From NCBI GenBank assembly GCA_902984215.1, contig CADWAF010000400.1, positions 1 through 37,499 on the forward strand: 37,499 nt of DNA, in the 5' to 3' direction. This DNA comes from Willaertia magna (lineage: Eukaryota > Heterolobosea > Eutetramitea > Acrasida > Naegleriidae). The translations under genes were made by a program, and so were the position numbers. Below, piece by piece: positions 2,375 to 24,362 of the stretch. The notes under the pieces were generated by a model, which searched no databases, had not been told where the DNA came from, and saw only the letters and a program-made list of their open reading frames with translations. The first letter of the stretch is position 1. Each line of letters starts with the position of its first letter.

Positions 2375-4087
2375 ATGGAGTTAATAGAAGACGAAATTAT
2401 TGAGCTCAAAAAGGTGATTGATAGGAAGGATGAGAAACTAGCCAAAATTGAGAATGAAATAAAGAAACTTACTACCATCATACTTATGCTAACCAAAGGA
2501 CCTACAAAGGAGATGAAAACGTTAGAAAATAGGAATAATTATTGTACAAGTGTAGGGAAAGAAGCGGAAAAGAGGAAGGCAAAGCACATGAAGGAAACTA
2601 AAGAAATTAATAATAATTCAAAAAACAAGTCTAACAACTATAAAAATAAAAAAGGCGGCAAACAGTCAAATCTAATTGAGTCAGAAAAACCGCCAAAAAA
2701 TAATCAATACCAAAACCCACCGTTAAAAAGTAAATGGAGGGAAAAACACAAACAGTTACTATTATATAATGTAGCCACTAAAGATAAATATAACCCCAAA
2801 CGATTAGTTAAAACAAACCAAAGCAAAAAAAACAACTACAAACCAACAAGTATCATCAAACCAATACACAATCCAAATACAAAACCAAATTACAAGTTAA
2901 GCAACATGTCTAATAATAACAATTTTAACAAAAGAACCAGAAACAACAATGACAACTTTAATGACCAAACCAATAAAAAAGTTAACAAAGATTACTCATT
3001 TGGAGTCACAATCATCTTAAGAGAAGAAATTAATGACATCTTTTATGACTATATAGTGAATATTATACCAAGATCTAGAACTAATGAAATATATAAACTT
3101 GAACCTAAACTTAACTTAATACAGATTTTATGCAACATAGAAGATGATAAAACCTAAGTCATTAAACTTTTTAACAAGGAAACCACAAAACAAGGTACAA
3201 ACACTAAATACTTTATTACAAAACTTAACTTTGAAAACTCCTTAAAAGACATTCAATATGAAGAAAATAAATACGAGGAAATTTTAGAAAAAATTAAATA
3301 CATTATTAATGAAATATATACTAATAGTTCCCATGAAATCCAAACTATGAATTTATCAAACAACTACAAAACAGGCATATTCAAACTAAAAGTAGGATAC
3401 ACTAACAAAATATTTGCTAAAAAGTTAATAGACACTAGAGATTTTCAAATTTACAAAACATACTCTGTGCTTACTATTGAGTATTTGAATATATATCAAA
3501 TATTCTTTCCAGCAGCTTCTTATTCTGAACAATTAGTGAAGAATATTATTAAAAAAATATTCTTAAAAGTTAAAGTTAATTTTGAAGAAAGTAGATATAA
3601 AATCTTTAAAGAAAAATCAAAGTACAACAACTAAGATATTTTTTTTAAAGTACAGTATATCTGTGCTAATAATGACGATACCAAAGCTTTAATCGATAAA
3701 AACCACAACTGTAAAGGAGACTTAAATGACAAATCTAAACGCAAAACTAAAAAATTTAAACATCTCGATAATGAATTTAAACTTAAGGCTGATAAAATTA
3801 AGAATAGACCAAATAATAATACTTATAACTTTTCTAACATGAGTAATGAATCTTTGGAAGGTAAATTGGTAGTTTAAGAGAATAAAATTAAAGAAATCAA
3901 GAAAAATATCAAAACATTAAATAAAAAGATTAATAAGTTCGACAATAGAATTGGTGTAGTTGAAGATGAGGTCAAGAACATTATTATTATCTTATCAAAC
4001 CAATTCAACTTCGATCCTATATTATACGAAGTGGAATTCAATGATGAAGAGAACGAAAATATGAATAATAATACCAATAATGATTAA
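2375..4087 (+). pseudogene. LINE ORF1 (Gag-like, nucleic-acid-binding), interrupted by TAA codons
   Basis: One frame runs about 570 codons from the ATG at 2375 to the start of ORF2. It is broken only by TAA (3155, 3632, about 3876 and 4085), with no frameshift. If TAA were read through, the first TGA is at 4109-4111, just inside ORF2. The first 45 residues (EDEIIELKKVIDRKDEKL...) are a coiled coil, followed by about 200 residues rich in Lys, Asn and Gln with few hydrophobics. The central part (about 3000-3630) is more globular, and a second coiled coil (KIKEIKKNIKTLNKKI) lies near the end. This suits an RNA-binding, multimerising LINE ORF1 protein. CAA glutamine codons are common in the first 260 codons, so C has not been generally lost here. 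ATG 4080 of ORF2 overlaps the end of ORF1. Confidence 0.7.
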
Positions 4088-7000
4088 AATCACAACGTTT
4101 AATCTTAATGATATCATTCTATCAGACACTAAAAATACCATTAAATTGGAAAACATTCTCAATATGATGAAAGTCAACAATGTTGATATTTTAATTATTA
4201 ATAACACTCATTTGAATGAGTTCAATAAAATTTATTCTGTTTTCTCTACTACTTCTAAATTCAAGAAACTAGTATTTCTAAATTCAGACGATACAAATTC
4301 TTTTAGAAGAACTGCTTTTCTTACAAAAGGGTTCACAAATATTAAAAAATTCTCAACCAACATACAAATAGTCAAAAAAAGAGTCTAACATCTTATCTTT
4401 AATCTGCGGAGACAAGAAATTAACTTCATTAACATCTATAACTGTCCTGGAGATAAGATAGAAAAGGAAAAAAAAATATACTTAATAAACTCAACAACCT
4501 TCTTATAGTTACTAATAACCAACTAACAATTATCATAGGTAACCTTAATTGTGACCCATGTAATATTGATCATAATAAAGCAAAGTTTGGAGAAAAACAA
4601 TAGATAAATTTAATCTTACAATTCTCTCAAATTCAAATCCCACTTATAATAGAGTCCAAAAGGATAGATATGGTGTTCAAAAAATAATAAATAGATACTT
4701 AGACTACGTAATTATATCTAATCATTTCAAAATAGTCAAGGAACTCAACCTTAACCAAATTACTAACAACGACCATTCTTTAGTAGGATTCAAATTAACT
4801 ATTGAAAATAAGTATTCTTAGAAAGCTCACATAGTAGCTAAAGATCCCCTTAAACAAGAAGAGATTAACTAAATTTTTGAGGAATCTGATAAAAATTTCG
4901 AAAGTTTCTTTACAAAAATATCACAACTAATTAAAAGTAAAAATAAAGATCAGTATCTATTCGCAAAAAGTCAAATTAATGGAAATAAGAAAATTAAAGA
5001 TCTAAAAAGAGAAATTTACGAACTAAGAATTAAAATTAAAGACACAAGAAAACCAAAATTAGCAGTAAAGTTCAATAACAAAAATAATGTACTTAAAAAG
5101 CTATGCAAAAAGGCATGTATTAAAAGAAGGAATATTTTTATAGAAAATTTAAATAATTTTCAAACAAGATTAATGTTTAAATTTAACAAAATAGTCAACC
5201 AAAACAATGTTAATTAAAATAAAATACTTAAAGTTACAAACGAAAAAGAAATTATACAATTTTTTGCTAACAAATTTATTGGAAATGATGAAGATATTAA
5301 ACTTAAAGTACCTTAATCTACAATTAAGAACAAACTTATATGGAATAAAATAATTATAACAGAGGTTAAAGAGAGTATATCTAAAATAAAATCAAAATCA
5401 ACTAAAATAGATAGTATTTCCTTTGAAATATTTAATAGATTTGATAATGAAATAATTAAAAATTTAACAAACCATTACAACAATCTCATCAAAAATGGAG
5501 ATATACCAAAGATATACAAATTTAAATAGCTTAAGTTAATCCTTAAGAAAGATAAAGTAACTGGTCCTAAAAACTTAAAATTAATTGCTATAATGAATAT
5601 TGTTTATAGACTTCTTTTTAATATTATAGCAAAAAAGCTTAGAAATTAGGCAAAAGATAATCTTAATATTAGACAGTAAGCATTCACCCCTAAAAGAGAG
5701 GTAATAAACTAAGTACATGCCATGAAAGGTTTAATCAAAACAAACAAACAAGACCTCATGATTGCTAATCTTGATGTAGAAGGGGCCTATGACTACGTGG
5801 ACTTTAAATTAATTAGAATGGGTCTAAAACATTGTAAATTTCCACCAACTCTTATTACGAATACATATTTTAATCATTATCTTAAATGTAAAATTAAACA
5901 AGAACTTAAAGAAGAAATCTTAAAAAACCAGAAGTATTCCTCAAGAATGTTCTTTAGCTCTTTTAGTCTACAATTATGTAACACAGATTATAATAGATAA
6001 AGCAATCCAAAAATGAAAAATTCTTATTGACTTATGTAATACTAATTCTAAATCTATAAGAATACTTAACTTTACAGATGACCTTTACATTATTGGAAAA
6101 TTAGTAAGAAATTTAATAGAAAACTAAAAGATATAAACAGATAAATGAAAAACATTAAACTAAAAATCAATACTGGAAAATCAAAAGCTCTTATATTTAG
6201 AAAATATAACAAAAACAACACCCCCATTATAAACAACAACTTAATACCAATTGTTAAAGACGAAAAGATACTTGGAAATTACTTTTTAGAAAATATAAAC
6301 ATTAAGGAAGATATAAAAAATAGGAAAAACAATATTATTTAAGGCCTCGAAAAATTGTTAGATCCCAGTAAATATAAAAACTTAATACAAACTAAATGCT
6401 TATCCAGCTTTGTTCATCTAGCAAAAAACAATGTTATCAACAAAAAAGACACTGAAGAAATCGACAAAGCCATAAGAAAAGAAATGAAAAAAAGATTAAA
6501 ATAGCTATAAATACACTAAGTAATCTATTTTACACTAAAATTAACGATGGAAGATTAGAACTAAGAAAACTTTACACTCAAGTAGAACTACTAGTAATCT
6601 ACACTATGAGAAATAAATATTACTCTAACTACAGACTAGTTAATTTCTTAACAAATAACAATCTATTAGAGGCCAAAAACTATAAAAAAAGTAAAAATCT
6701 TAACATCTATGAAAACTTCTGGAGCATCATGGATACATACAAATTATACAAAACCCCCAAATCAAACCAATCATTTCACAACTACTCAATCCATGACAGA
6801 AAAAAAAAGATTACTATTTACACAAATGGATCTAAAACTAACAGTAATACAGGATACATGTGTATGATTATATCTAAAAAAGAAGAACAACTAAACATAC
6901 ATTTAAAATCGACAATAATTATTCTAATAATATAGCTAAACTCTGTGCTATTACTCACACAGTCAAATTAGCCTCAAAAAACTCAAAAATAGATCTTAAC

Positions 7001-7824
7001 ACAAATAGTAAAATATCAATTGAAATATATGGAAACAAATATTACAAAGGTAACTTTATGTGCTTTAAAAAAAAGCTAAAAAAACGCTCAAAGAAAAGAA
7101 TATAATACTAAAAATAACAAAGGTAAAAGCCTATAGTAATAATATTTTAAATAATAAGGTTAACCAATGGACAAAAAAAACCGAAAACAATATTGAAACA
7201 TTTAATATCCAGAAATTATTCAACTCTAACCAACTAATATTCCACAACAGTAAAAATGTAATTATATTTAACTGGAAAAAAAAAATTATAGAAATGAACT
7301 ATAGAAAGATCCAAGACAATAATAAAGACAGATAGATAATAAATAAGAGAAGTAACACTAATGAAAAGGAAGTAGTAGACAAACAACTCACATTTGGATT
7401 TATAGATGAAAAAATATCAGCTACCACTAAGATACAACTTTGGAGACATGTTAATAATTGCCACTTTAATATCAAGACAAATCGAGAAATAACTTGTACT
7501 AATTATAACAAAGAACTAAACCTGTGCCACCTAATAACAGAATGCTCTGCCACCAATAAAGAAAGAAACTGGGCATCAGATAATATCAAAAGATTGACAA
7601 GTAAACAATTAGTAGTTACTAAACTCAATAACGCTATATTCCATAATCACATAGTACTCAATTATAAAGGTATTATCACTAAAGATGACACATTCTTTAA
7701 AGGTGTTAAAAACTATAAAAAATGTATAATCGAATTCCAAATTACCCTTACACTACTTGCAGCAAAATGCTACAAATCTGAAAAAAACAAACTACTTCCA
7801 AGTGGAGCTTATAATAAAGTATAA
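4080..7824 (+). pseudogene. LINE ORF2: AP endonuclease - reverse transcriptase - RNase H - CCHC
   Basis: Endonuclease (4080 to about 4815): INFINIYNCPGD, then GNLNCDP (family GDFN) and NNDHSLVGF (family SDH). Reverse transcriptase (about 5330-6270): fingers around KLILKKDKVTGPKN, palm LDVEGAYDYVDF, RSIPQECSLALL (family RGxPQG), and FTDDLYIIG (family YADD/FADD) followed by LKINTGKSKALIF. RNase H (about 6800-7020): ITIYTNGS, NIAKLCAI, LNTNS, each aligned to the family's catalytic Asp, Glu, Asp. C-terminal CCHC: C-x9-C-H-x4-C at about 7495-7550 (TCTNYNKELNLCHLITEC). Stops from 4618 to 5940 in one frame are all TAA/TAG (about eight). One, at 5710-5712 (INxVHAM), is where related RTs carry a conserved Gln. 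Frame changes occur near 4470, 4600, 5930, 6130, 6500 and 6930, mostly at A runs. Several catalytic positions differ from the family by G-to-A changes, so the protein would be inactive as written. Confidence 0.8.
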
Positions 7825-7825
7825 A

Positions 7826-7841: not shown

Positions 7842-7867
7842 TTTTAGATATATTTTGAATTTATTTT

Positions 7868-7910: not shown

Positions 7911-8202
7911 AAGTTTTATTACTTGTTTATTACAAAAAATTTTGTTAATTAATTTAAAGGACTTTCTACTAAAATTTTAAAGCTAATCCCGCAGTAACAT
8001 TTACTATTGTAATTAATTTTGTAAAAGTTTTAATTAATAAAAGTGTTAGTAAAATTGTTTGTTGTTGAAGATTTGAATTTCTGTGATAACTAGTTATGAG
8101 AAGAGCTAGCTATTTCACAACAAATATAGATCGAAATAAGCACTGATTTTGACAAATTGACTTCAATAGAAAACATAGTTGAGTAAATAAGTAGTATTAA
8201 CA

Positions 8203-8335
8203 CTAGTCAATCTTATGAAGTAATATTAGTAAAAGTATTTTTTAGTAGAAAGTCATTAAATAATAAAAACTATAAAAGTAATTATTTATATATTTAGCTT
8301 TCCTATTAATTTTTACTACTTGCATAATAAAATTG
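8203..8335 (+). repeat. Segment x1 of a composite repeat (left copy)
   Basis: AGTCAATCTTATGAAG ... AATAATAAAAACTATAAAAG ... TTTATATATT matches 24365-24485 almost base for base, differing mainly by transitions and a 4-bp indel. The right copy continues into segment x2; this one diverges. The two copies are in the same orientation about 16.2 kb apart. Confidence 0.7.
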
Positions 8336-8451
8336 AGAATGAATTTTTTTAGCACAAATAATTACTAGGAAAAATATCAAAAAAATTTTAAAGTCGTTTA
8401 GCTTATTTCTTCTTTTTACTCTATAAATTTCATAATCCATAATAAAAAATG

Positions 8452-9413
8452 TTTTAAAACAAAAACTTAAAACTCAACAATACCAAAGGCACAACCAGTA
8501 AAAGTATTTTTTCTACATGTTAAAGCTCTATTTCTTTACTTTACATCAGCAGAACAAGTTAAAGTTAAATATGTAGTTTCATTTACATTAAAGAAAGATT
8601 TATTTTTTGCAATAGAGATGTTAGAAATGGTTCAGTTAGAAGATAATTTATCATTCTATCATATATAAATAAACGTAATAATGTTCTAAAAAGATTTAAA
8701 ACTTTACCAGTAAAGCCAATAACAAAATGTAAATATGAAACATTTAAAAATTATTTTGAAGGTTATAAATATAAAAAACAAAATCAGACTAAATCAAAAT
8801 CGGTTACTAATTGTGTAAGTGAAAAATATGAGTATGATGTTACAATTTACTATTTCAGATATTCAAATTTACTTGAATTAAATAATAGGAATGTTGTAGT
8901 TAATTGTATATTTATTGTACAAAAAGATTTAATAAAAAGTTTTCAAATGAATGATCTTAAATTTTTCCAATACAGGTATATTATAATGAAAATTTCATTT
9001 TAGTATAATGTAGTTCATGAATTGTATCTGTTTCAATAACTTATGTAGTTCAAAAATATGAAGATATTTAGAATAAGTAAATTTTTAATTTGTAATTAAT
9101 TAAATATATTCAATAAAAATCATTAAAAAAAATGTTTTAAATAAAAGAAATAGTTTTACCAGATCCACTATTAATAAATTTAGTTTGAATGAACCATTTT
9201 CAATTCATTAATGATGTTCCTCATTTAAAAGTAAACAATACAGTTATTTTTAACTTTATTTATATATTCAAAAAAGTTTATAGTGGAATTGAAATTGAAA
9301 AATCTAAAGAAAGATGGATTAAAAAACATAAAACAAATAAAGAAATTAAATTAAACATCAGTAGAACTCAATTTCAATTTTATAAAAGTATAAATAAAAA
9401 AAATTACTATTAA
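8452..9413 (+). pseudogene. Broken coding stretch upstream of the first transposase-like gene
   Basis: From about 8460 to 8670 one frame reads as protein; from 8670 to about 9000 another frame is open for over 110 codons (VLKRFKTLPVKPITKCKYE and onward). A third stretch starts at ATG 9132, reads MFxIKEIVLPDPLLINLV with TAA at the third codon and TGA just before MNHFQF, and ends at TAA 9411. Both 8455 and 9132 begin with ATG TTT TAA after an A run, a shared start pattern. No domain is recognised. It may be the 5' part of the transposase-like gene that follows at 9536, or a separate small gene. Confidence 0.4.
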
Positions 9414-9535
9414 TTCATCATACTTTTATTTATTCTCATCTATATATAAAACTATTCTTTTTAAAAGGAAAGAAAATTTCAAAAATTTTTATAAACAACT
9501 TTTTCAAACATTATCATCTAACAAAAATAAAGTAC

Positions 9536-12019
9536 TTGAAAACTAAAAAATTAGAAGAACTTAAAAATAGATTAATTTTTTTTATTTGTGATGATAATGA
9601 TGATGATGTATATTATTTAAAAAATGTTTGTGAAAAATTTTCAAAAGAAGTAGAACAATTTTTAGATGAAAAAGATTTAATTAATATCAATTTAAGTGAT
9701 AAATTTACTTTTTTTAATCAAAATACATCAAGTACATTAAATTTCGTTAGTAAAAATTCTTAAAATAATAGTTCACATAAAAAGAACAATTAAAATTTTA
9801 TTAACAAGATGAAAATATTTTTAAAAGAAAATTTATTAATTAATGATTTTAAAATAGCAAAAAGAAATGATGAAGAATTTTAAATTAAAGATGAAACTAC
9901 AAAAAAACTTTTTCATCTAAAAAAAAAAGAAAAGATGAGTATTAAAAATACTAATTTTAAAAAGAATTAAAAATAAAAAAAAAAGAGTTATAATTATGAT
10001 CAAAAGAGAGGTAAAGTTTATTTAAATTCATTAAGATATTGTTATACAAGTTGTAAATATACTAAAATAAATATCTAAAATAAACCAAGTTTAAAAGATT
10101 TATTCACTAGACATAGAATTATTAATATAAATGAACTTAAAAAAAGTAGAAGATTAATAGAAATAGATTAAGAGGTTTATAAAAAATTTGATGAACTTTT
10201 AAACTTACATCATTTTAATACTTCAAATCTAGCAAGATTATAGCTATTAGTTAGGATTTCAAAAAATATTTTAATAACAAAATTATCAAATACCTTGAAT
10301 AGCAACAAAAATTATAAAGATTTCAAATTACAATTTGAGAGTTCTCTAAAAAGAGATGTAGTTGATATTCTATATATTAAAGATTTAAGTTTAATATTTA
10401 ATAAAGTGCTTTTTGATTTAATTAAAAGATTAAATTTAACTAGAATTTTCTGTTCAAGAAAAAAATTAAAGAAACTGAAGGATGAACTTAATAAATTAAT
10501 TAGCAACTCATTATTTGAAATACTTAACAGAATACTAGCTGATTTGAAAGTTTGTTTATTGAATATAATTAATCTATATTATGTTCTTGAAGGAAAGAAG
10601 TTTTTAAATTAAAATGAGAAAGAAAGATTAATAATTAAAATTATAGTTGATGGAAGAGTAATTAAAAAATCTTAAGTCACTTTAGGTATTATACTTTTTA
10701 ACTTAAGAAATATATTCTTAATTTAAATATTACAATTTATATTCTACTTAGAATTATGTAAAGAATCAAAAACAAAAGATACATTAAATATTAACTTTGG
10801 AAAGTTAAGAGATATGTTGAAAAAGGTTAAAAAATTAGTTTTTAATAATACAAAGATTGAAGTAAAATTTTTATATACATCAAACTTAAAAAATATTCAC
10901 CAAATATTTAATATAAATGTATATCCTTTTTGTTGTTGTGACAATAATAATTTATAGAAGTTTAATTTTCTATTTTAAGAAAACTTGAACAGATTACTAA
11001 AATTTAAAGTAATTAAATTTGGTATTTACTGTTTATATTTAAAATAGTGAGTAACCAAGTTTTTACTTTCATATATTGCTTATTTATTGTCAAATCACTT
11101 TGAAACTTTTACTAATAATATTAAAAAATTATCTTATTTAAGTAGATTTCAGTAGAAGTTACAAAAAGTTGTTTTTGATAATAATGATATAGAAATTGAT
11201 AAAGAAAAATTTAGAATTAAATGTCAACAATTAAAAAGTTATAGTTGTGATTTTATTTTATTTAATCTAAAATTACTTTTTGAAGGCATACTAGAGATTA
11301 AAAATTATAAATCTATATTCAAATTGTAGAGAGAAATTTTGATATTAATATTGTTTAACATTGGAAATGAGGAAGATTGAATTAATATTGAAAACAATGA
11401 CAATATTATATTTGATGAGAAAATAAGTTTACTTTAAGATTTAATTAAGAAATTTCATTATAAGTTAATAAAACTTTATACTAACAATTTAAGAAGCCAT
11501 TATATATATATTTTATTCCACATACCTGAATATATCAAACATTTAAGAGACAACTACAACTTTTCTTTTCCACTAATATCGAATAAATGTTTTGAATATA
11601 TACATTTTTTTTACAGATGTATGTTTGTAAGAATAATGAATAATAGTAGTAGTAATAATAAAGTAAAACTAATAAATTCACAATAGTAAAAAGTTCATTG
11701 TTGACTACTGTTATAAAAATTATGGTGGTGATGAAAAAGATTAAAAGAAAATATAAAACAAAAAAATTACAAAAGTTCAGTTGAAAAAATTGAATTGAAA
11801 TAATCTAAACTCTTTTAACTTAATTATTAGTTAACTAAATTGTGAAACAGATTGTACAATAGAGGTAAGTAATATAGAAATAAAAAAAAGTGATTTAATG
11901 GAAATTGAAAATAATAAAAAAAAGGTAAATCAATTAACAAAGAAAAAGAAAAGTAAAACTTTAAATCCAAAAAAACAAAAGAAACAACTTTTAGAATACA
12001 ATACTTCAAGTAAAAAATA
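9536..12019 (+). pseudogene. Large transposase-like protein T1, single 2.1-kb frame with TAA/TAG (and two TGA) inside
   Basis: From 9536 to about 11690 one frame continues for about 715 codons without any indel. About twenty in-frame stop triplets occur (roughly 13 TAA, 6 TAG, 2 TGA), so no long standard ORF exists. Landmarks: IVDGRVIKKSQVTLGI (about 10640), KFLYTSNLKNIHQIFNINVYP followed by FCCCD (about 10870-10940), and HYIYILFHIPEYIKHLRDN with CFEYIHFF (about 11500-11610). This order (an acidic DGR site, a '(S)DLK...CxxC' core, a late 'PYxH...HxPE' segment) resembles large uncharacterised transposon-derived proteins of animals and protists. That comparison is from memory and needs a profile search. 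The Asp expected before LK is Asn here. A very basic tail (KKKKSKTLNPKKQKKQ), in another frame, follows at 11880-12019. Confidence 0.5.
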
Positions 12020-12157
12020 AAATTACACTATCATACAAGTTAAATGGATTCTAAGGTTTTAATTGATGGATAGGAAAAGTTTTTTACAATGAATGTTTTT
12101 TATAAAAAAAAATGAAAGCCAAAAAAATGTCTAAACAACAATATTATTTCTATCATT

Positions 12158-13200
12158 ATGGACATTTTAGATAAATTATTTATTTCGTAATAACATGTTG
12201 AGAGAAGTAATTTATTAAATAATAATAATCAAATTAATACAGTCTCTTCATATGAAAATATTGAGAGAGACATAAATATAAATAATAATCATTCTTCGCT
12301 AGCAATAGTTGAGAGAAGTAATATAAATAAAAATAATTTTTCGCTAGCAAAAGTTAAGAGAAATAATATTATAGAATAATAATAGTAATTGTTTATTAAT
12401 ATTTAAATATTATAATCCAATAATTAAATCATTTAAAAAAGTAAATAATACAAATACTAAAAAAAATATACCACAAAGTAATAATAAAATTATTAAAAAA
12501 AGAAATGGAAATAAAAGTATTAAAAAAGGATATAAAGGAAAAAATAGTAAATAATTAAGTATATTTAATGAAACTGCACTTTTAAATTATTTATAAAACA
12601 CTAATGAATAAGATAATATGGAATTAAATAAATTAAAAAAATATAAAGAATTATGTTTAAATAGTTTTTATTCATTAAAAGATTAGTTAAAAAATAATAC
12701 AAAAGAAATGGGAGTGGGGTATTTAGTTATAAAATGATTATTAAAAGAATTAAACAATAATGAATGCATTTTAAAAATAAAAAAGTATATGAAAATTTAC
12801 AAGCTGGAAATATGTATCCAAGATTTTTTGATTTCTTTTTAAGTAAATTAGCAGAAAGAAAAAGATATGTTTATAAATATAAAAAAAATATTATTATAAC
12901 TTATCAATAATTTAGATTGGATCATATATTAAAATTATTAAAAAAAGATACTACATTAACTGCATTTAAAAGATGGACTGTTTTAGATATGTTTGATGGA
13001 GGAGAAATAATAAAGAAAATTGATTGTGAATTAAATTATATTAGATTAACTATTAATTGTGATATTTATAGAATTATATTTGTTTTTGAATTTGAAGTTA
13101 AATCAATAATTATTAATAATACATCTAGATTAAACTTAATTATGGATACTATAGTTGTTGGATAGTTATTAGAATAAAATTAGTATAAAAATAAAACTAA
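12158..13200 (+). pseudogene. Protein with SSxxx(I/V)ER peptide repeats, copy 1
   Basis: From ATG 12158 the frame gives four units of a repeat of about 16 residues: HVERSN, SSYENIERD, SSLAIVERSN, FSLAKVKRN, each followed by an Ile/Asn-rich spacer. A run of four stop triplets (TAA TAA TAG TAA) follows near 12377, then Lys/Asn-rich sequence. The second half (about 12790-13190) is open for 130 codons in one frame: QAGNMYPRFFDFFLSKLAERKR, then FKRWTVLDMFDGGEIIKKIDC, with TAA at 12908 and TAG/TAA/TAG at the end. No domain is recognised in this half. The frames of the two parts differ, so at least one indel is present. Confidence 0.4.
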
Positions 13201-13459
13201 ATTTAAATATATTCAAATTGTTTTTTTTTATTGGTGGATATTAAATTATTATATAATATAAATTTAAATAATATATACAAGAACTCACAGCTTAGAGATA
13301 TAGTAGTATGCTACTTGTAATGAGTAACTTTAGTTTAATTTTCTTTAATAGGTTAATATTTTTTTATTATTTTACTTATTTTTCTTCATTTTTGAAGCTT
13401 ATTTAAAAGTTTAAATAAAAATAAAAAAAAATTTTAAAAAAAAAAAATAATTAAAAAAA

Positions 13460-15930
13460 ATGTTAAAACATAATCACTCACAAAATAACCATCCAAAAAA
13501 CAATCCAAATCTTATCAAAAAATCAAATACATCTTCGAGTGCCAGCTTTGAGAGAAGTAATAGTAAAAGTAATGTATCTTTTTTGAATAGTGGTTATTTT
13601 AAAAAAAGAAATAATCAACTATATTTTTTCTTTACTAATTACTATTAAAATAATCAATCTTCGAGCTCCGGCTTTGAGAGAAAGTATTATAATAAAAGTA
13701 ATATATTTTTTTCGAGTAGTGGTTACTTTGAGAGAAGAAATTATTTAAATATATAACTACAAAACAAAAGAAAAGAAATAAATGATTCAAATGAAAGAAA
13801 AAAAGAAAAAAATGAATCAAAAAATAAAAAGAAGTTATTATTATTATAATGAGGATGAAGAATTAAATAAATTAATAAGTCCATTACAAGAAGACGTAAA
13901 TAATTATATAAATAATAAAGAATGAACAATGTTTAAAAGTAAAAAAGATAAAAAAAATTTTAAAGATATTATAAAATTACTTGAATATAAAGAAGAAGAG
14001 ATATATAGTAAAGATTTAGATATATTAAAAAGAAATATCAATTATTTATTATTAGAACAAACATTAAATAGTGATATTTTGAATTAATTATTTAATAGTT
14101 ATAACTATAATATACATCCAAATAAAAAGTTAACTATAAGATTTATTGAAAGAGATAATATTAAGGCTTATTATTTGTTGCAAAGAAGAGATAACAATGA
14201 TTTAAAGAGTTATTGTTTATTAGAATATTCTAATAATTTAAAGTTTTTAAGATTAAAATTATTATGTAATATATTTAAAGGATATGATATTTTAAATATT
14301 GAGGACTATATTAAAGATATTTATTGTAGTAAAAAAGAAATGTTTAGGAAATATTATAGAGGTAAAAGAATTGGAAAATTTTTAAGTAAAAGTTAAATAG
14401 ATAAAAAGTTGTTAAATGATTTAAAAGAAAATAAGAAATACATAGAAATATTAAAATATATATATAATAATGATTTTTTAAATATAAAATAATTTATAAA
14501 AACAAAAAGTATTTTCTTAAACATTAAAAAAGATTATAAGGAAATTATGGATAATAAGTTATAAAAAGAATATTGTGAAAAAAAAATTAAAAAAATGATA
14601 GATAATAATTATCAATATAAATAATCTAAAAACATTACTCTTTTACTTTAACAAAAAGTAACAGTTTAATTATTTTAACAACTATAAAAACAAACTGAAA
14701 TCATTATTCTTCTAATTCAACAATCACCATTAGTTAATATTTTTTAATAATAGAAACAGTTTATATTTAATATTTCACCTTAATAACAACAACAAAAAAC
14801 CTGAAATCATTATTCCACTAATTCAACAAAAACAATCACCATTAAATAATATTTCTCTTTAATAACAATAAAAACAGCCTATAGTTAATATTTCACTTCA
14901 ACAAAAAGTAACAATTCTTTTATAGACTATTTATAAAAACTAAAATATACAACCTAATCTTACTTTACAACAACAAATACATTTAAACCAATTTCTATAA
15001 TTAGAACCAAATTATTTTTACGGTAAACCGTTGAGAGATGATAGTTGATATAGATTTGATTTAAATAATAAAAGAAAAATAAAAACAACAAAAACAAACT
15101 ACTTTATTTTATAAAAATAATAAAAAGTTTTTAAATGTAGAGAAGTTTGATTATAAAAGATTAAAAAGAAATATTTCTATTGGAAATAAAGTTGATAATG
15201 ATTATTTTATTTGGAAATTAGAAAATAATAATAAAAATGGTTTTAATATGAGTATAGATGTATTAGATTTAAATATTTTATTACTATTCAAATGATTGAC
15301 TAATGAAATATTAGATTATATTAGTAATATTATTGGTTTACCAAGAAGTAATAGTATTATATTAAGTAAATATTGGTATTATATTTAAAGAATTAAAATA
15401 TAGTAATTTAGATATTTTAAAAAAATATTATATGCATTATAATTTTAAAAATATAAACATAATATTTATGTTTATAAAATTTTATAATGGAAGTGAACAT
15501 TTTTAAATGATAGTATATTTTAAAAAAGAAAATAAGATAGTATATATTGATAATTTATATTTAAACAACAGAAAAAAAGAGTATAATGAAGAAATAATTA
15601 AAGGATTTAAAAGAGTTATAAAATATTGGTATTTTAGAGATGGGGTATATATAAATAATAATATTGATACAAAATATTCAATTATTTATCAATAACCCAC
15701 AGAAATAGATTATAAGGTTTATTTAATTTACTATTTAGAAAATATTATTAAATATGACGATATTGATAATATTTATAATAGGTTTTTTTTTTATGTTGAA
15801 GATGTATTAAAATTGAAGAAAAAATATTTAAATTATATTTTAGATCATTATTATTTATTGAAGTTTAAAAAAAATTTCAAGAAAAATTTTCAAAAAAAAT
15901 ATTACTCTTCAAATAGTTAGAGTATTATAA
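13460..15930 (+). pseudogene. SSxxx(I/V)ER-repeat protein with Gln-rich linker and C-terminal Ulp1/C48-type protease domain
   Basis: ATG 13460 opens a frame with repeat units SSSASFERSN, SSSSGFERKY and FSSSGYFERRN. A Lys/Leu-rich helical region of about 280 codons follows (13830-14640), then a Gln-rich linker (14640-15000) in which CAA, TAA and TAG alternate, then a domain with the Ulp1 order. LLLFK-TGA-LTNEILDYI (TGA 15293-15295) matches the family WLNDxxI motif; the catalytic His is at 15498 (EHF, family HW) and the Asp at about 15549 (YIDNL). A TAA at 15693-15695 sits five residues before Asp in QxPTEIDYK, the place of the oxyanion-hole Gln in QxNxxDCG. The catalytic Cys is replaced by Tyr (15711-15713). 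Frame changes occur near 13830, 14800 and 15390. It is dead as written. That all parts form one gene is inference. Confidence 0.5.
14640..15010 (+). repeat. Gln-rich low-complexity repeat encoded by mixed CAA, TAA and TAG
   Basis: Imperfect units such as PEIIIPLIQQKQSPLNNIS and TEIIILLIQQSPLVNIF alternate with runs like CTT TAA TAA CAA TAA AAA CAG. Equivalent positions in neighbouring units carry CAA in one and TAA in another, so the two triplets behave as interchangeable within the repeat. One indel near 14800 changes the frame. Confidence 0.6.
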
Positions 15931-15949
15931 ACAAAAATTAGTTTTTAGT

Positions 15950-16087
15950 TTGTACTTTATAAAATTAAATAATATTCATAAAATTTTAAAACAAATTAAT
16001 TTAAAACTTTAAACAAAATCATTTTTTTATTACTGTAAATTTTTTAAATAAATGATTTTCAGTATATTATTTTGAATTTAAAAATAT
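15950..16087. other. AT-rich spacer
   Basis: Nothing coding is seen. It leads into the 24-bp tandem array. Confidence 0.5.
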
Positions 16088-16248
16088 AATTGTAAATTTA
16101 TTTAATTATTAAATTGTAATTTTATTTAAATATTAAATTGTAAATTTATTTAAATTTTAATTTGTAAATTTATTTAAATATTAAATTGTAAATTTATTTA
16201 ATTATTAATTTGTAAATTTATTTAAAAATTAAATTGCAAATTTTTTTA
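16088..16248. repeat. 24-bp tandem repeat, seven units with constant period
   Basis: The triplet TTG recurs at 16090, 16114, 16138, 16162, 16186, 16210 and 16234, exactly 24 bp apart. Each is followed by TAAATTTATTTAA-like sequence and a short variable AT segment. Only one unit (the last) has a C in place of T after TTG. The frame is full of stops, and a whole-helical-turn period is noteworthy. The function is unknown. Confidence 0.85.
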
Positions 16249-16513
16249 TTTTTATTTTATTTTATATTTATTTTAATTTATTAATTTACTTTATTTACTT
16301 TCTTTCTTTAATATATATATTTATATTTTAAACTTAATTTTTTTATTCGAATTCAATTAAATCTACTATATAAACTAACATATTTCTTGTTTGATTATTT
16401 TTATTTTTAAAGTATAACTTTATTTCTTTTAATTGCATACTCTTCACTTTATTGTTAAAAGAATATAAGAATTATTAACTTTTACTTTAATAATAAGAAA
16501 TATTATTGATCAA
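16249..16513. other. AT-rich spacer
   Basis: T-rich DNA with no reading frame, repeat or RNA-like structure that I can support. Confidence 0.4.
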
Positions 16514-16867
16514 ATGTTAAATTCTATAATTACTTTTAAGATTAAAAAAAGAATTATTAAAACAAGTGAATGTAAAAAACAATTCTAGATTAGAAATATA
16601 TTCAATAATAATGTAAAGGAAGTAGTTGTTGATTTGAGTATAAATGAAGGTAATAAAAACAATATTATTAACTTTCTTAATGACAAGCACTACAAAGCAC
16701 AACTTAAATACTTTTGTTGCATGCTTTTTATTTTTTATTATATTGAAGTAGTTTATATTTTTAATTTCATCTTTAAGAAAAATAGAGATTATTGTTTTTA
16801 CTTTAATGAAAAAAATATTGAATATGATGAAAATTCTAATGAAAAAGATTCTAATAAACATAATTGA
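16514..16867 (+). CDS. Hypothetical small protein with one hydrophobic segment
   Basis: ATG 16514 opens 117 codons with a single internal TAG (after KKQF, about 16589), ending at TGA 16865-16867. It has a basic N-terminus, a Cys/Phe/Ile-rich segment (YFCCMLFIFYYIEVVYIFNF) that could span a membrane, and an acidic tail (EYDENSNEKDSN). It lies between the tandem array and the third repeat gene of the mobile block. An overlapping minus-strand ORF of similar length exists. The plus reading is preferred only because its charge distribution looks more protein-like. No homology is recognised. Confidence 0.25.
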
Positions 16868-17079
16868 TTTCAATGAAAAAAATAGTTTTATTCATTTAAT
16901 AATATTTAATGATAATTTTTTCAGCTTGTAATAATTTATTATTTCTTTTAAATTAAATAAACAGTACTGTGTGTGATCTACCTTAAGGTTTATATTATTT
17001 TTTTGTAAAGTTTAAAAAAAAATTAAAAAAAAATATAGAAAAAATATTTCAATAACTAACCACCACTATCCACCTAAAT

Positions 17080-17640
17080 TAAACTCTTCGCATACACATA
17101 TTGAGAGAACAATAAATAATAATAATAATCAAATTACTAATTTTTCGCAAAATATTGATAGAAATAATAATAATCAAATAAATAATACAAATTTCTTTAA
17201 CCCTTTTCAATACTATAGTTATTCTTCATATTCACATATTGAAAAAGCACTAAATAATAATTACTCTTCGCTTCCAATTGTTGATAGAGTAAATAACAAT
17301 TTATAACAAAATAACTCTTTGCAAAATATTAAAAAAGTTAACAATAATCAAATAACATTTTAAACATTACCTTTACCAATAAAATCCTCAAGTAACAATA
17401 ACTTTTTGTATACAAATATTGAAAGAGAAACAAATAATAAAATTAATAACTCTTTACATATATATATTAAGAGAGATAATTTGCAAAGTAAAAGAAGAAA
17501 TGAAAAAAGAAAAATATACAAAGGTCAATAGATGGTCAATAGATGTAAAGAATGGTTTTAATGAAAATAATAAAAAATTTTATTTTGCAGGTGTTTTAAA
17601 AGAAAAAAGAAAATATACACATTCTATAAAAAAAAACTAA
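17080..17640 (+). pseudogene. SSxxx(I/V)ER-repeat protein, copy 3
   Basis: Units SSHTHIERT, FSQNIDRN, SSYSHIEKA, SSLPIVDRV, SLQNIKKV, LYTNIERE and SLHIYIKRD follow each other in one frame from about 17083 to 17480, with Asn-rich spacers and TAA at about 17305 and 17362 in Gln-like positions. In the last part (17495-17640) another frame looks more protein-like (KVNRWSIDVKNGFNENNKKF, FAGVLKEKRKYTHSIKKN). The motif is the same as in the genes at 12.2 and 13.5 kb. Synonymous changes within the core (GAG/GAA, TCG/TCA) suggest that the peptide rather than the DNA has been conserved. Confidence 0.45.
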
Positions 17641-18059
17641 ATGGGAAATACTATAAAATTTTTATACTGATGATCATATATTTAAGAAATATATTAGTTT
17701 TAAAAAAAACATAATAACCATTCTGTAACATTTATAAATAAAAAAATAACATGTACTTTAAATTGTTTTGATATAAGTTTTTTTTAATTTATTCTTGAAA
17801 CAAAATAATGATTTTTTTATTACTACTTGTTATAATAAAAAAAGAAAAAATAATAAATTAACATTACAAAATTTAAAAAACAATCCTTTTATTGAAATTA
17901 AAAATAAATCATTAATAAGTAAATTAATTTATGGTGTATATTATATTTAAGTTATGGTATTTCATTATTTGAAATAATTGTTTAATTATTTTTAATTGAC
18001 AAACAATTTTTTGATAATTTAGTTACTAAATAATTGAAATTAGTAAAAAAAAAGAAAAA

Positions 18060-20009
18060 TCAATTTAAATGAAGAACAATTAATAAAAAAACGAAAGCTT
18101 GATTTATTTATTAAAAATCAAGAGTCAATAACTGATATTAAATAGAATAATTTAAATTCAAAATTAAATTTAAAGTTAACTAACTTTAAACAATTATATG
18201 AAATTAAAAAAGAAGAAATATTTATCATTAATAATTATTACAAATTTCAAAAATGTATTATGTTATTAAGAAATAAAGAAAAAAAATTTAAAGAAATTGT
18301 AATGTTATTTATTAGTGATTTAAATAATTTATAATAGATATTTTTAAAGTTTATTTTATTGAATTTATAGATAGATTTTATAATAACAAACCTATTGAAA
18401 ATTTTTTATACCAATAAATTGAAAAAGGATCTAACATTCAAAATTATGATTATATTTTAAAATATAGTTATAATAAACCTGGAAAAAAACAAAACAAAGA
18501 AGATATTATTATATTTGATGTTTCTTTAATGAATTCACATATTTTAAATAATTAAAATCCATTAAATATATTCCCAATCTCTTTATGGTTTGAGCCAAAA
18601 AGTTTATTAAAAATTATTTCTCTTATTTTTAAAGATCAAATTAAATATATGAATGTTATAGAGTTTGAATTAAATAATATTAAATATATTATTAATTTAA
18701 ATAATTTTTTTGTGGTTGATTTATTTTGTAATTTATTAATTTTAAAAAGATTAAGTATAACAAGTTATTGTTGTTATTGTGATTTTAATAATTGTAATAT
18801 AAAGGGAAGTGAAAGAAAAGGTAGTAAAAAATTAAGTAATTTTTTAAAATTTAAACATTCTCAAATAATTTTATGTTATTTATATATAAAAAAATATATT
18901 TATGAAACTTTATTAAAAATTATGTTAATAAATGAAAAAAATCAATTATTATAATTAAAAAAAAATATGCCAATAATAATGTTATGAAATATGTTATTAA
19001 AAATATAATTAGTAGTAGTGATGTTGATAAAAAAAATTTTGAATTATGTATGTATATTAAAAGAGTATATGCTAACTATATTTTTAAAAATTATGAAACC
19101 TTATTTAAAGATATTTTTGAAAAAAGAAAATCATTAAAATTAAAAGAAATATGGTATGGCTATATTAAGATTTTAAATATTATTAGGGATGGTATAAAAG
19201 ATAAAAATATTAATGATGTTTTAAAAAATTTAAAAAAAGAAACAAAATATTTATATATATTGTTATCAAATATTAAACTTCATTCTTATTAGTATATATA
19301 TGCTTTATTATTACATTTTAATTTAATTTTGAAATTTTTACTTTCAGGATTAGCAGATTTTGTAAATAAAGGATTTAAACATTTATATAAAGTTATTTGG
19401 AAAATATTTTTAAATTGTATTCAGAAGAGGTTTAATAAGGGAGAATATTAGTATTGTTTTTTTAGAGATTTATCAAACAATTTTTATGATATATCTGATG
19501 AATTAATTAATAATAATATTAATAATATTTTAAAAGGACCTTATATAATTAATTGTTTTTTTGAAAATGACAATAATATTAATAAATAATTGATTACTGA
19601 TAATATTGATAATGATTTTAAAGAATAATTTGAAAATGAAACTAATTTACAAAAAAATATTTTTAATATTAATATTTTTACAGAAACTAATGATATATAT
19701 ATTAAAAATGTTGCTAAATTAATATATTTGAATAATGTTTTAACAATTAATAATATTGAAAGTAATAGAAAAAATAATGGTGTTAATGATAACATTATTA
19801 AAGAGATTATTGATTTAGTTCAAATATTATGTTATTTTTGTTTAAAATTATATTTATCAAGTCATAATCAATTTATTTGGAATAAGCAAGAAAAAAGAGT
19901 TTATGAAAAGAGTAGGAATATTATAGAAAGTAAGAGTTTAATTGTTTATAATAGTGAAGCATTTATTGTAATAGATTTTGATATAAAAGAAGATAATGAA
20001 TTTTCTTAA
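18060..20009 (+). pseudogene. Large transposase-like protein T2, paralogous in layout to T1
   Basis: Three frame segments joined at A/T runs near 18330 and 18960. The middle one (18337-18955) contains NPLNIFPISLWFEPKSLLKI, then YIINLNNFFVVDLFCNLL followed by SYCCYCDFNNC. This is the counterpart of the T1 core (LYTSNLKNIHQ ... FCCCDNNN), and T2 keeps the Asp that is Asn in T1. The last segment, 18984-20009, is one frame of 342 codons with four TAA/TAG and no TGA, ending at TAA 20007. Conserved-looking stretches there include KLKEIWYGYIKILNIIRDGI and CLKLYLSSHNQFIWNKQEKR. The relation to T1 rests on the core motif and general layout only. It is probably the second transposition-type protein of the same large element. 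Confidence 0.45.
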
Positions 20010-20600
20010 TTTTAATATAAATTTATACCAACACCTTCTCAAGATAATCCTAAAATTATATATATAATAGAAACAGATAATGCTGAATGTTATAATATGT
20101 AATTATTATTTATTATTATTATCTCTCAACTTTTAAAGCGAAGATTTATTTGGTTTGTATTTATTTTTTTTATTTTTTCCACACAAGTAAATGTTTTTTT
20201 TTAAATATATATTTTTTAATAAAATTTATGTTTTATTTATTAGTACTATATATATCTACAATAGTTTTGAGTTATTGTTATAAATATTGTATATAATAAT
20301 TTCAATTTCAATTCTTGGGAGCTATGTTTTTATTTTTTGTATTTGTTATTTTTTGGTTTTCTAAAGTTTTGTTTGTAAACTTTAAGTTCTTTCAAAATTT
20401 TGGTTGTAATCTTTAGTTGACTTTCAAAACTTATCCACTAATTAAAAATAACCCTTACGTAATAGTGAATTACTTTATTTATTGATTTCTTTTAGAGATT
20501 TTGTTATTTTATATTTCCATTGTAAAAGTAAATATCACTTTAATCAATCAAGACTTCAAATACAAAATGAATTCAAACATATGCTTTGTTTAAATTTATT
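20010..20600. other. Non-coding region with one inverted SSxxx(I/V)ER-type segment
   Basis: T-rich DNA between the rightward genes and the leftward DIRS-like element. At about 20121-20147 the minus strand reads TCTTCGC ... GTTGAGAGAT, the same core as the peptide repeat genes but inverted. It is followed by an Asn-type AAT run and then stops. No gene is assigned. Confidence 0.45.
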
Positions 20601-20618
20601 TTTAGAATTTTGCTATGT

Positions 20619-20700
20619 AAACAAAAAAGTTACATATTTATATAAACTTTTAATGTTTAACATAGAAAAAGTAAAATTGACTATAAATTAATAAGTTTGG
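20619..20700 (+). repeat. Composite repeat, segments x2+x3 (3' border of the DIRS-like element)
   Basis: GTAAACAAAAAAGTTACATA and the next 16 bases (x2) are identical to about 24486-24520. The following 45 bp (x3) match 7868-7910. This arrangement (x3; x1; x2-x3; x1-x2 in left-to-right order) resembles the split direct repeats of tyrosine-recombinase retroelements. Confidence 0.7.
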
Positions 20701-23700
20701 TCTCACATTATTTTATATTATCTTTCCTAATAAATTGAAACCTTCTAATGTATTTATTTTTAGTAATTAATGCCTATCTACTTATATATCCTATCATTTC
20801 TATAAACTCTCCTGCTATAATAAATTGTAAAGTTGCTTCAATTTTTAAAAAATAACTAAATACACATCTATTACTACTTCCAAAACTTGCTACTTTCTTT
20901 ACTACTTTTGAAATGAATAAATTAAATAAATACTTATTATCATTATATTTTATAAACAATAAATTATTAGCTTTTTTGTTTATATACAATTTAAGATATT
21001 CTTTAATAATTTTAACTGAACATAAAAGACTATCTTTAATTGATTTAATTAAAATATTATTTGTATCATTATTATTTTAATCTGTTTTATACTATTGTAT
21101 GAAAATTGTTATAAACTTACTTTTAAGTTTATTAAAAACTAATTGATTAAGTGAAATTTTACATATTTTTCTTGGTCTACATAAGTATTTATAATTAATA
21201 GTAATTATTGTAGCAAATATTTTTTAATAAAAAACCTATTTCAGTGTGTTAAAATTATTGAATAATTTATTTTTTAATTAATGCTTCAAATAATAAATAA
21301 AAAAAGCTTCTCTTTTAAGTTTTTCTTTTAAAAGTCTTTTATAATATTTAATATCAACTTTTTTAATACCTAAAAGTCTATTTGACTATTTGAAATAAAA
21401 ATTATTCTTGTTAGTAAAAAATTGAATAACAAATTTAAATAAAGCTATTACAATACTTTTATTTATAGCTATAAGATGAGAAATAAATAGTTTATTAGTT
21501 TTTAATTTGTTTAAGTTCAATAAAAACTAAAAACAAAAACCTTCATAAGGTTTAAACACTTTATTATAATTTTTAAACATATTTAAAACAATTTGATTTT
21601 CAATAAGAAAAGTATTAATTTTATTATAATTTAATATTTGTTTCCATTTGTTTGAATAGTGATCAGATTTTAAAATAAATAGATAAATTTTTTAACATTT
21701 CTTCTAAAAAATGTGTTATAACATTTTATTTTTAAATCTTTCTCTAATTTAATGCAATCCTTAAGAGAATTGAAAACTAAAATACTAATACTCACTTTAA
21801 AACTATGATTACTCTTTTTGCTTTTAATTTTATAATATAAAAGAGTACTAGTTGAATTATTTTAAAAAGTAATATAACTCTTTCTTAAATATAACATAGT
21901 ATACTTTTTAAAAATAATTTTTCTTGGGCTACTAATAAAAAAATTTTTAAAACTATTTTCAATTTTTTCTTGTTTTTATGTATTATTTCTTTTAAATTCT
22001 TCCATTCCCCAATAAACATTTAATTATTTATTATAATACCATATTTTATTAATAAAAAATCTGTTGCTATTATAATTAAGTTTATTTTTAATTCTAATAA
22101 AATTGTTTTGTTTATTAGAATTATCTTTTTTTTAATTAATAAGTCCTTTAAAACACCTTTATTTATTATCATTAATTTGTTATAATCTATAGTATTTTAT
22201 AAAACTATCAACATATTTTTCTTTAATCTCCATAAAAGTAAACTAATAATTAAGATAACTAAATTTATAAATTTTAATTTCTCAATCAATTTGACTATCT
22301 TTTTTAATATTACTTTCACTCTGTTCTAACCTTTTCAAATAAATTTCTTTATTATTAAAATAATTTAAGTCTTTTTGTCTAAAAAAATAAATAAAATTTT
22401 TTAAATTAAGTCTATTGTAAATCTTAAGTATTTCAATAATTGTATTAGAATAAAAATACTTTTTTTATATTAAATAATCCAACCTAAATCCTGAAGTAAG
22501 TTGATAACAGTGTTTGTATGTATTAAGTTAATGTTTTAACTTTTTACTACAATCAAAAAGTCATCTATATAAACAAAAACTATAATGTTTTAATTTTTCA
22601 ATACTTTAATTTGTTTTTTCATAATTTTTGTAAAGAATTAAGATGTTAAATTTGATTTAAAGAAAAAACATTAAAATTAAAAGTTTTCTCCTTCTATTTG
22701 AAACCCAGTAGGTTTTTTGAATTTTGATATATTGAAATGTAAAAATTACTTTTTTTAGATCTAACTTTATTATTTACTAACTTTTCTTTAAAAATTTTAT
22801 AATCATTATAAACATGTCTAACTTGAAATGAATTTAAACTTTTATTTACTTTTCATAAATTTAAAATCAGTCTAAACTAATTTAAACTCTTATTTGGAAC
22901 TAAATAAATTGAATTTAATACTACGTTTTTATTTAAAAATAATTTTTTCTAAAATTATTATACTCATTTTTTTATCTATTCAAACTATCTCCTTCAATTA
23001 AATGATTGTATTGTTTCTAAAGTTTATTTACTTTATTTTGTTCAAATTAAAAATAATTCTATAATAAATCTAGTTCACTATCATATATCTAATAAACCAA
23101 TTTCTTTTCACCTTTTAAAAAATAAACTCAACTTTTTTGTTATAATTAAGTTACTATTAATTAGAATTATTACTAAAATTACTTCTATTACTATTATTAT
23201 TTTTATAATTTTTATTATTGCTATTGAGTTTTTATTTTTTAATATTGTTGTTAGAGTTATTATTATATTTATTCTTTTCAGCTTGACCTTTATTATTATA
23301 ATATACTTGAAAACTAGCAGCATTATTAGTTTTTTGAATTAATATTTTAATTAGATTATCTTTTTTGTTATTCTTTAATTTTCTTAACAATCTTTATTAA
23401 GGCATATTCTAATGGGTTTTCATATATGTAATATTAAAAATTTCTAGTTTTGCTACTATATTACTTTTTTAATACCAAATTTAATAGTAATCTTTTTAAA
23501 AACTAATAATAATACAACTAATTTTTCTAATTATATCTTAACAGTAAAGTCAATTATTATAAAAGCAGTAATTTGAATTTTATTCTATTAATTATACATA
23601 AAAAAGTCCAATTTTATGAATTCTACTTTAACCTTTTATACTTAGTGGTAAGAAAGAATTTAATATAATTTAAATTAAATAAAATACCACTATACTTTCT

Positions 23701-24330
23701 AAAAAGTTCACTAATATAATTATTAAAATCTATTTTAGTTTTATATTAAACTTTTTAATTTCTTTAATTATAAAACCAACTTTAACTAAATCCTGAATAA
23801 TATTAATATAATTGTCAACAATAGAAGAACTGAAGTTAAGATTAACTTTTTTGTTATTTTTTTTATATTATTATTATCACTTATATTATTAATATTAGTG
23901 TTTGTATTATTTTTATTACTAATATTATTGATTAAATTGAGTAATTTTTTAGTTTTGTTGTTGTTATTGAGATTTTTGTTTGTATTTTAGCTTTAATTAA
24001 TATTTTAATTGTTGTTAAGTAAATTAAAAATTTACTATTATTGTAATAAAATTAAACTAAGATTGACTTGATTGTTGGTTAAAATAATATTAAATGAAGA
24101 TGCATTATTATTGTTAATATTAAAACTATTAATACTATTAACATTAAGCTATAACATATTAAATAAATTATTGAAATTATTTAAATCATTATTTAGTAAA
24201 CTAAAGTTAAAACTTTTTAAATTAATGTTATTTATATTTAAAATTCTATTAAAAGAACTAAATAATCTAGAATTATTAATATTATTTGAACTGTTCTAAG
24301 ATATAGTTTGTATGATATGTAATAAATTGT
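20700..24330 (-). mobile_element. DIRS-like tyrosine-recombinase retroelement (Gag - RT/RNase H - YR), minus strand, decayed
   Basis: Read leftward. Gag-like region (about 24300-23000): Asn/Ser-rich, ending in ASFQVYYNNKGQAEKN and an Asn/Lys-rich tail. Reverse transcriptase (about 22800-22350): IKLDLKKSNFYISIYQNS, then FFTKIMK, then VFVYIDDFLIV (YIDD codons 22560-22571), then LLQDLGWII and YLRFTID, the order seen in DIRS/Ngaro RTs. A frame of over 300 codons (about 22330-21700) with TAA/TAG and one TGA (SQID-TGA-EIKIY) follows. The tyrosine recombinase lies at the 3' end. RT and YR are in the arrangement diagnostic of DIRS-order elements; no LTRs, integrase or protease are seen. Frameshifts are present near the RT fingers. 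It would not be mobile as written. Confidence 0.7.
20740..21230 (-). pseudogene. Tyrosine recombinase domain of the DIRS-like element
   Basis: Landmarks in order: YLCRPRKICKISL (family 'LRPSEl', first catalytic Arg), QYKTDx with TAA at 21077-21079 where DIRS recombinases have KTDQ, LLCSVKIIKEYL (family CPVxxLxxYL), then FSYFLKIEATLQFIIAG (family 'HSLRIGAAT...AG', the H-x-x-R box) and MIGYISR-x-ALITKNKYIR (family 'LGRWxSxAYxxYIR', which contains the catalytic Tyr). Most departures from the family (H to Y, S to F, R to K, G to E, E to K) need only C-to-T or G-to-A. The domain is recognisable but has lost its His and second Arg. Confidence 0.6.
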
Positions 24331-24362
24331 ATTTTATTGTATTATTTATTGTATTATTATTT

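Follow-up and report, generated by a model that had tools for sequence, protein, structure and literature searches.

The window analysed here, 37,499 nucleotides of Willaertia magna (positions 1 to 37,499 of contig CADWAF010000400.1, assembly GCA_902984215.1; contig C121 in our numbering), contains a block of dead mobile elements belonging to the nuclear genome. Within this block, a dead long interspersed nuclear element (LINE; 2375 to about 8000) adjoins an outer retroelement (about 8001-24555), which is itself split by a 12.3-kb insertion (Table 1). The stop codons in the LINE are ordinary ones, and most of them arose by C:G-to-T:A transitions, which affected either strand and every sequence context, with all-context deamination of 5-methylcytosine (5mC) on silenced elements as the suggested source. 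An earlier note, made from the letters of the window, had offered two hypotheses for its interrupted reading frames, a variant code with TAA/TAG read as Gln and inactivation by C:G-to-T:A transitions. The second was borne out: copies differ almost only by transitions, changes from C/G to T/A prevail in the LINE comparisons, and stops, missense and silent changes occur at roughly the proportions expected of random C-to-T change. W. magna (Heterolobosea) is free-living and related to Naegleria. The analysed genome (19.24 Mb, 894 contigs) looks partial, because the published assemblies comprise 36.6 Mb in 4,505 contigs (c2c maky) and 47.61 Mb in 1,239 scaffolds (T5(S)44).

The spectrum of differences consists almost purely of transitions and is limited to certain copies. 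LINE groups derive from a single search that gave 43 matches, 30 of them with loci, and do not amount to a census; pairs with a common copy are not independent. Between the window LINE and its closest copy, on contig C230, 381 transitions and 18 transversions were counted. The ratio of transitions to transversions (ts/tv) was 4.6-21.2 in all 13 within-group pairs of the four broken LINE groups. In those broken LINE pairs that were analysed for runs of one strand, 15-47% of the C/G cells differed between copies. Open or nearly open LINE groups gave values of 1.0-1.7: L015/L017 567:358 (1.6; two stops in L017), L030/L032 248:147 (1.7), L032/L033 201:123 (1.6) and L029/L037 284:297 (1.0; one stop in each). 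L030 and L033 are identical over 1174 bases at the start of a contig, so that the comparisons L030/L032 and L032/L033 overlap. The alignment of genomic copies proposed in the earlier note revealed an excess of transitions and, at Trp codons, TGG in some copies against TAG, TGA or TAA in others.

Two yardsticks of background mutation were used: four-fold sites of open LINEs (ts:tv 24:43 for L032/L033; 13:31 for the overlapping pair L030/L032) and duplicated tRNA flanks outside the tRNA with each base used once (31 transitions and 48 transversions over 2263 sites; one row of 2:2 is a palindrome). Relative to these, the window pair had odds ratios of 38 and 33, respectively (Fisher p about 4e-29 and 5e-30). 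If dead copies simply decayed at a slow, ordinary pace under AT-biased mutation, no special process would be needed; this reading suits an AT-rich genome and dead copies, but it is highly improbable given that both yardsticks, although small, favour transversions and lie this far from the window pair. When transitions per C/G site were divided by transversions per site, the result was 20-331 in 11 broken-copy pairs and 3.8-7.2 in four others; a figure for methylated human CpG is 25-30. A sequencing or assembly artefact, such as miscalled modified bases, might be considered because nanopore reads corrected with short reads underlie one of the published W. magna assemblies (PMC11702301). This explanation is scarcely credible, given the share of C/G cells that differ in broken LINE pairs, the ordinary ts/tv of open copies in the same assembly and the use of Illumina reads in both published W. 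magna assemblies. In the element inserted into the outer retroelement, ts/tv was 49, 7.1 and 3.8 in the three closest pairs, as if active lineages had diverged normally and inserted copies had later gained transitions.

The C-to-T direction is clear in most LINE comparisons and mixed in the nested element. From L014 to L012, 348 changes led from C/G to T/A and 83 in reverse. With other copies as judge and on clean alignments, the ratio of C>T plus G>A to T>C plus A>G was 366:76, 312:118 and 100:74 in LINE B, 175:78 and 144:118 in LINE C, and 253:93, 226:117 and 83:54 in LINE D; singletons on clean alignments gave 186:104 (LINE C) and 50:30 (inserted element). A polarisation based on whole-locus MAFFT alignments was set aside, as these included non-homologous flanks; it had yielded 15:66, 47:101 and 78:67 for T-element pairs, and 318:274 (LINE C) and 70:101 (T element) for singletons.

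Both strands change: the C>T:G>A ratio ranged from 0.66 to 1.43 in broken-copy pairs. Thirty z-scores for one-strand runs ranged from -2.5 to 1.9. Such runs were slightly commoner than expected by chance (23 of the 30 scores negative), yet all 8 control scores were negative as well, so that any weak clustering is not special to broken copies. These data bear on an APOBEC-like cytidine deaminase acting on the single-stranded DNA or cDNA of the elements. C-to-T changes with few transversions and the slight excess of runs would agree with such an enzyme, whereas an editor of cDNA would mark one strand, no z-score exceeded 1.9 in size in broken copies, and the same spectrum appears in closely similar pairs of the inserted element, for which the frames searched contained no recognisable reverse transcriptase (RT); the involvement of such a deaminase is very unlikely. 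RNA editing copied back into DNA was set aside, since it would not be expected to change both strands.

Sequence context had little influence. The changed share from L014 to L012 was 0.34 at CA, 0.32 at CC, 0.44 at CG and 0.35 at CT; in the window pair it was 0.37, 0.24, 0.48 and 0.30, respectively. Contexts are thus near flat overall, apart from somewhat higher values at CG and where a C stands 5'; the window pair is less even. Changes were also nearly neutral with respect to coding. From L014 to L012, the changed share of C+G was 0.27, 0.27 and 0.34 at the three codon positions, and 216 changes comprised 119 missense, 83 silent and 14 stop mutations (6.5%), with expected shares of 59.5%, 34.4% and 6.1%; from L014 to L011, 3 of 82 changes produced stops. 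Residue changes relative to L014 fit C-to-T mutation (Pro to Leu/Ser, Gly to Arg/Glu, Asp to Asn, Glu to Lys, Thr to Ile). A spurious abundance of transitions caused by selection was rejected, because the changes are spread over codon positions and stops occur at about the chance rate.

A true defence of the repeat-induced point mutation (RIP) type, in which duplicated DNA is recognised and C is actively mutated to T in a burst, is unlikely. It would account for the transition-rich spectrum on both strands, for one pair with 30% of C/G cells changed and 2 transversions in 1860 bases, for ratios that differ among five chosen pairs (chi-square p 0.023), for a (CA+TG)/(AC+GT) quotient of 0.97-1.02 in the window LINE, C230, L016, L018 and L020 (compared with 1.19-1.39 in flanking genes and the tRNA-flank sample), and for the mild preference for CpA over CC and CT in the window pair. 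This preference, however, is inconsistent over other pairs; open LINE copies with 86-87% identity over 2.4-2.9 kb were spared (ts/tv 1.6-1.7), as was a 1.1-kb duplication on C81 (96% identical; 2 transitions, 9 transversions). The identical stretch of L030 and L033 is weak evidence of a spared duplicate because of its position at the start of a contig, where a single copy may have been assembled two times. Mutation specific to CpA was likewise rejected: dinucleotide counts and, mildly, the window pair hint at it, but the other copy-to-copy contexts disagree.

Deamination of 5mC in all contexts is favoured, because the related Naegleria gruberi methylates all contexts in repeats and because DNMT1 and SRA domains are present in W. 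magna. Silenced elements would carry all-context 5mC laid down by DNMT1-type enzymes; the modified base would deaminate to thymine, spontaneously or with enzymatic help, and transitions would then erode inserted copies much more quickly than any other kind of change. The flat C context and the predicted DNMT1/SRA domains are both consistent with this scheme. In N. gruberi, which has two DNMT1 enzymes, CA, CC, CG and CT are methylated at similar levels, mostly in repeats, and younger insertions of transposable elements are more methylated (PMC12344493). Domain searches of the W. magna genome identified a DNMT1-like gene on C319 (RFD 19079-19477 and, on the same strand, methylase 17811-16346, the latter match interrupted by two stops that perhaps mark introns), a second DNMT1-RFD on C616, another methylase locus on C456 and SRA domains at three loci; the two matches to the TET/JBP family were both below the cut-off. 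Only tentatively can it be proposed that Heterolobosea possess an active, targeted cytosine-deaminating defence that acts on DNMT1-type all-context methylation rather than through fungal RID, marks silenced elements and kills them by mutation, and spares active copies and ordinary duplications, which would be a second origin of a RIP-like genome defence, in Discoba.

Several observations weigh against transition-driven decay through methylation. Seven of the ten inserted-element pairs had a ts/tv of only 1.6-3.9, and the direction of change in this element was mixed (98:38, 43:20, 38:44, 18:25). The window LINE can be polarised only by distant relatives, which gave 33:21 (strict) and 75:39 (relaxed) on the window side and 32:21 and 56:39 for C230. 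The minority of T-to-C changes appears to exceed what independent C-to-T mutation at uniform sites would give; therefore, either site mutability is unequal or some changes run from T to C. GC contents overlap between 12 broken copies (0.207-0.286) and six open or nearly open loci (0.254-0.300). The low GC content of the 8-24 kb part was dropped as a sign of hypermutation, because the open locus of a relative of the inserted T1 frame is equally AT-rich (17.7% GC). At 19 of 50 TAA codons, both relatives used for the comparison of stops described below have Asn, Lys, Ser, Glu, Gly, Arg or gaps rather than Gln or Trp. Methylation in N. gruberi is low overall, at 0.28% (PMC12344493).

The earlier note had described frames cut almost only by TAA and TAG throughout the block, which holds for the LINE and not for the remainder. 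When its frames are fixed by homology to relatives, the window LINE contains 16 in-frame stops (11 TAA, 4 TAG, 1 TGA), and 2375-8000 contains 21 TGA-free frames of at least 150 codons, compared with 14.9 +/- 2.0 in 30 shuffles. For 8001-24555 the numbers were 56 and 51.4 +/- 5.1 (30 shuffles), with a longest frame of 588 and a shuffle maximum of 656, so that the scarcity of TGA there reflects composition. TGA made up 1 of 110 in-frame stops over 13 segments, as opposed to 166 of the 897 stops in the two remaining sense frames, a contrast that is largely built in, because the segments outside open reading frame (ORF) 2 were chosen as TGA-free. The frames T1 and T2 had been named without coordinates; long TGA-free frames were therefore used, and T2 was taken as 13926-14804, possibly another frame. 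Other LINE copies carry 201 distinct stops (128 TAA, 47 TAG, 26 TGA). A TAA-heavy mix is the default, as one-step C-to-T changes on either strand predict TAA:TAG:TGA sites of 29:13:15 on the ORF2 of L015 and 24:12:10 on the L014 pieces; the excess of TAG over TGA in the window LINE (4:1) is a small sample.

Recoding, whereby the elements use, or stem from an organism that uses, TAA/TAG for Gln and perhaps TGA for Trp, is refuted and retains practically no probability. It drew on the rarity of TGA in the window LINE and on TAA often standing at Gln sites. To place the stops, relatives L014 and L015 were aligned to the window and 17 loci on 13 other contigs, with duplicate positions removed (217 distinct stops). 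L014 is itself partly damaged, with an ORF2 divided between two frames (520 and 330 codons). Where both relatives have the same residue, TAA stood at Gln in 23 and at Trp in 8 of 50 cases, TAG at Trp in 22 and at Gln in 2 of 28, and TGA at Trp in 15 of 18. Judged by L014 alone, the other copies had TAA at Gln (34/85), TAG at Trp (20/28) and TGA at Trp (14/21); judged by L015 alone, the values were 39/127, 29/46 and 18/26. Most LINE stops thus fit a change of CAA to TAA, or of TGG to TAG, TGA or TAA. Moreover, Trp codons at 5527, 5647, 6014 and 6142 vary between copies among TGG, TAG, TGA and TAA, and no code reads such columns. At 5215 the window has TAA and all six other sequences TGG; at 5647 it has TAG, and the others TGG (three), TAG (two) or TGA (one); at 6014 it has TGA, with TAG in C230 and TGG in L011, L013, L014 and L015.

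Frames were said to stay intact over 2 kb, which applies to ORF1, but ORF2 falls into eight pieces, so that a recoded reading would still require seven frame changes. His was said not to be replaced by Tyr, yet relative to L014 it is so in 3 of 20 cells (window and C230), close to the rate of Gln to stop (9/54). The same genome has related LINEs with open standard-code frames; these are only 42-51% identical to the window RT and not close copies, and no open copy of the window's own LINE subgroup was found, the C230 copy being broken as well. Standard code use in flanking genes was confirmed. The search for suppressor tRNAs suggested earlier found no such anticodon among 26 typed nuclear tRNA loci (63 of 1757 candidates scored); a pattern search for such anticodons gave 58 matches and 14 in the control, and the single match inspected in sequence fits an Arg tRNA shifted by one base.

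Apart from these nuclear loci, the mitochondrial contig C438, on which cox1, nad7, nad4L and rps12 were recognised by eye, carries two well-scoring tRNA genes with the anticodons UUA and CUA. A ccmF-like frame of about 480 codons on it is open under the standard code, and nad7 seems to end at a standard stop. tRNA-Ile(AAT) occurs at thirteen loci (L043-L055) and adjoins tRNA-Val(AAC) in L050-L053.

Table 1. Features of the block, its flank and the mitochondrial contig. Positions refer to the window unless a locus is given.
Feature	Position	Strand	Remarks
Broken LINE ORF1	2375..4084	+	single frame; internal TAA at 3155, 3632, 3875; no TGA
Broken LINE ORF2	4098..7407	+	eight pieces, changing frames, 13 in-frame stops; tblastn of open 1123-aa L015 ORF
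RT catalytic stretch	5927..6097	+	GIPQGCPLAPL / FADD of relative; SIPQECSLALL / FTDD in window
Outer retroelement, left part	8001..8332		8191-8332 is outer half of left terminal direct repeat
Inserted AT-rich stretch, 12.3 kb	8333..20615	+	splits left terminal repeat of outer retroelement
T1 frame in insertion	9299..11050	+	583 codons, 18 TAA and 4 TAG
Further frame in insertion	18936..20270	+	8 TAA, 4 TAG
Outer retroelement, remainder	20616..24555	-	left-repeat inner half 20616-20678; right terminal repeat 24351-24549
RT remnant of outer retroelement	22335-22802	-	weak RVT_1, below cut-off
FKBP flanking frame, outside block	24797..25204	+	intact, standard stops, ends ELLKWE-stop
Mitochondrial tRNA, UUA (C438)	L041 1501-1572	-	72.5 bits
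Mitochondrial tRNA, CUA (C438)	L040 337-409	+	60.4 bits

The ORF1 piece of L015 (332 aa, open) aligns to 3035-4018 in one frame; a protein search with the first ORF1 piece of the window gave no match. When aligned to the open ORF of L015, the ORF2 pieces of the window lie, in order, in frames 3, 2, 1, 2, 1, 3, 2 and 1. The RT segment 4576-5928 contains 6 TAA, 3 TAG and no TGA, and the RT read through its stops matches Pfam RVT_1. L015 itself, on contig C180, has a frame of 1256 codons without stops, in which RVT_1 and RNase_H score above and endonuclease matches just below the Pfam cut-off. With its RT and an endonuclease that is below the cut-off and predicted from this open relative, the window LINE qualifies as a non-LTR retrotransposon.

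Repeats on C361, C96 and C325 show colinearity with parts of the inserted stretch; it begins at about 12026 for the first two contigs and at about 14353 for the third, and extends to about 20494. A relative of T1 on C754, 28% identical, forms an open frame of 1056 codons. Within the limits applied, T1 matched no Pfam or PHROG family, the searched frames of the inserted element gave nothing above the Pfam cut-off and nothing in PHROGs, and the T1 relative matched no phage records. Elsewhere in the genome the further frame has 13 matches (rows overlap), each with stops and 8 of them with TGA. At 16076-16248, a 24-base AT-rich unit is repeated in tandem about seven times. Copies of the outer retroelement are present on C148, C766 and C42, and tandem relatives on C148 do not contain the 8333-20615 middle. 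The label DIRS-like fits this element poorly, since its terminal repeats are direct. Outside the block, the FKBP frame includes a perfect 24-base tandem duplication (24881-24928; GSGEQTPP twice), and a 601-aa frame (26745-28550) is 100% identical over 99% of the query to W. magna ABK040_001089, the other named matches being from W. magna and Naegleria.

The affinity of the window LINE to non-LTR retrotransposons is visible in its open relative, which contains RVT_1 and RNase_H and has LINE-1 ORF2 and R2 proteins among its 10 PDB matches, although among 31 protein-database relatives (7998 candidates scored) the top-ranked one shares only 28% identity across 22% of the query. The transition spectrum lies in a distant lineage whose related genus methylates repeats in all contexts. 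W. magna is a good test bed for such a process, because the background appears biased towards transversions and a small number of sites is enough for the process to stand out. A warning also follows: frames cut by TAA and TAG in AT-rich protist DNA can mimic a variant code when the stops derive from CAA and TGG. The abstracts searched named no RIP-like mutation in Heterolobosea. As to methylation, N. gruberi resembles W. magna in being of a related genus, with equal use of the four C contexts in repeats and DNMT1 and SRA domains found here as well; it differs in that its methylation was measured while the section describing it mentions no mutational decay (PMC12344493), whereas in W. magna mutations are what is observed. 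In Zymoseptoria tritici, the DNA methyltransferase Dim2 is likewise tied to the mutation rate in repeats, but this is a fungus with a fungal enzyme (PMC8016269). As in fungal RIP, mobile elements of W. magna are inactivated by C:G-to-T:A transitions on both strands, clearly so in most LINE comparisons and with mixed direction in the inserted element. Unlike in fungal RIP, there is no consistent preference for CpA, long duplicates are spared, the host belongs to Discoba, and no RID-type enzyme was identified among two methylase-domain and two DNMT1-RFD loci, which were not classified further. The wearing-out of mobile DNA in W. magna thus resembles the fungal defence without matching it in detail.

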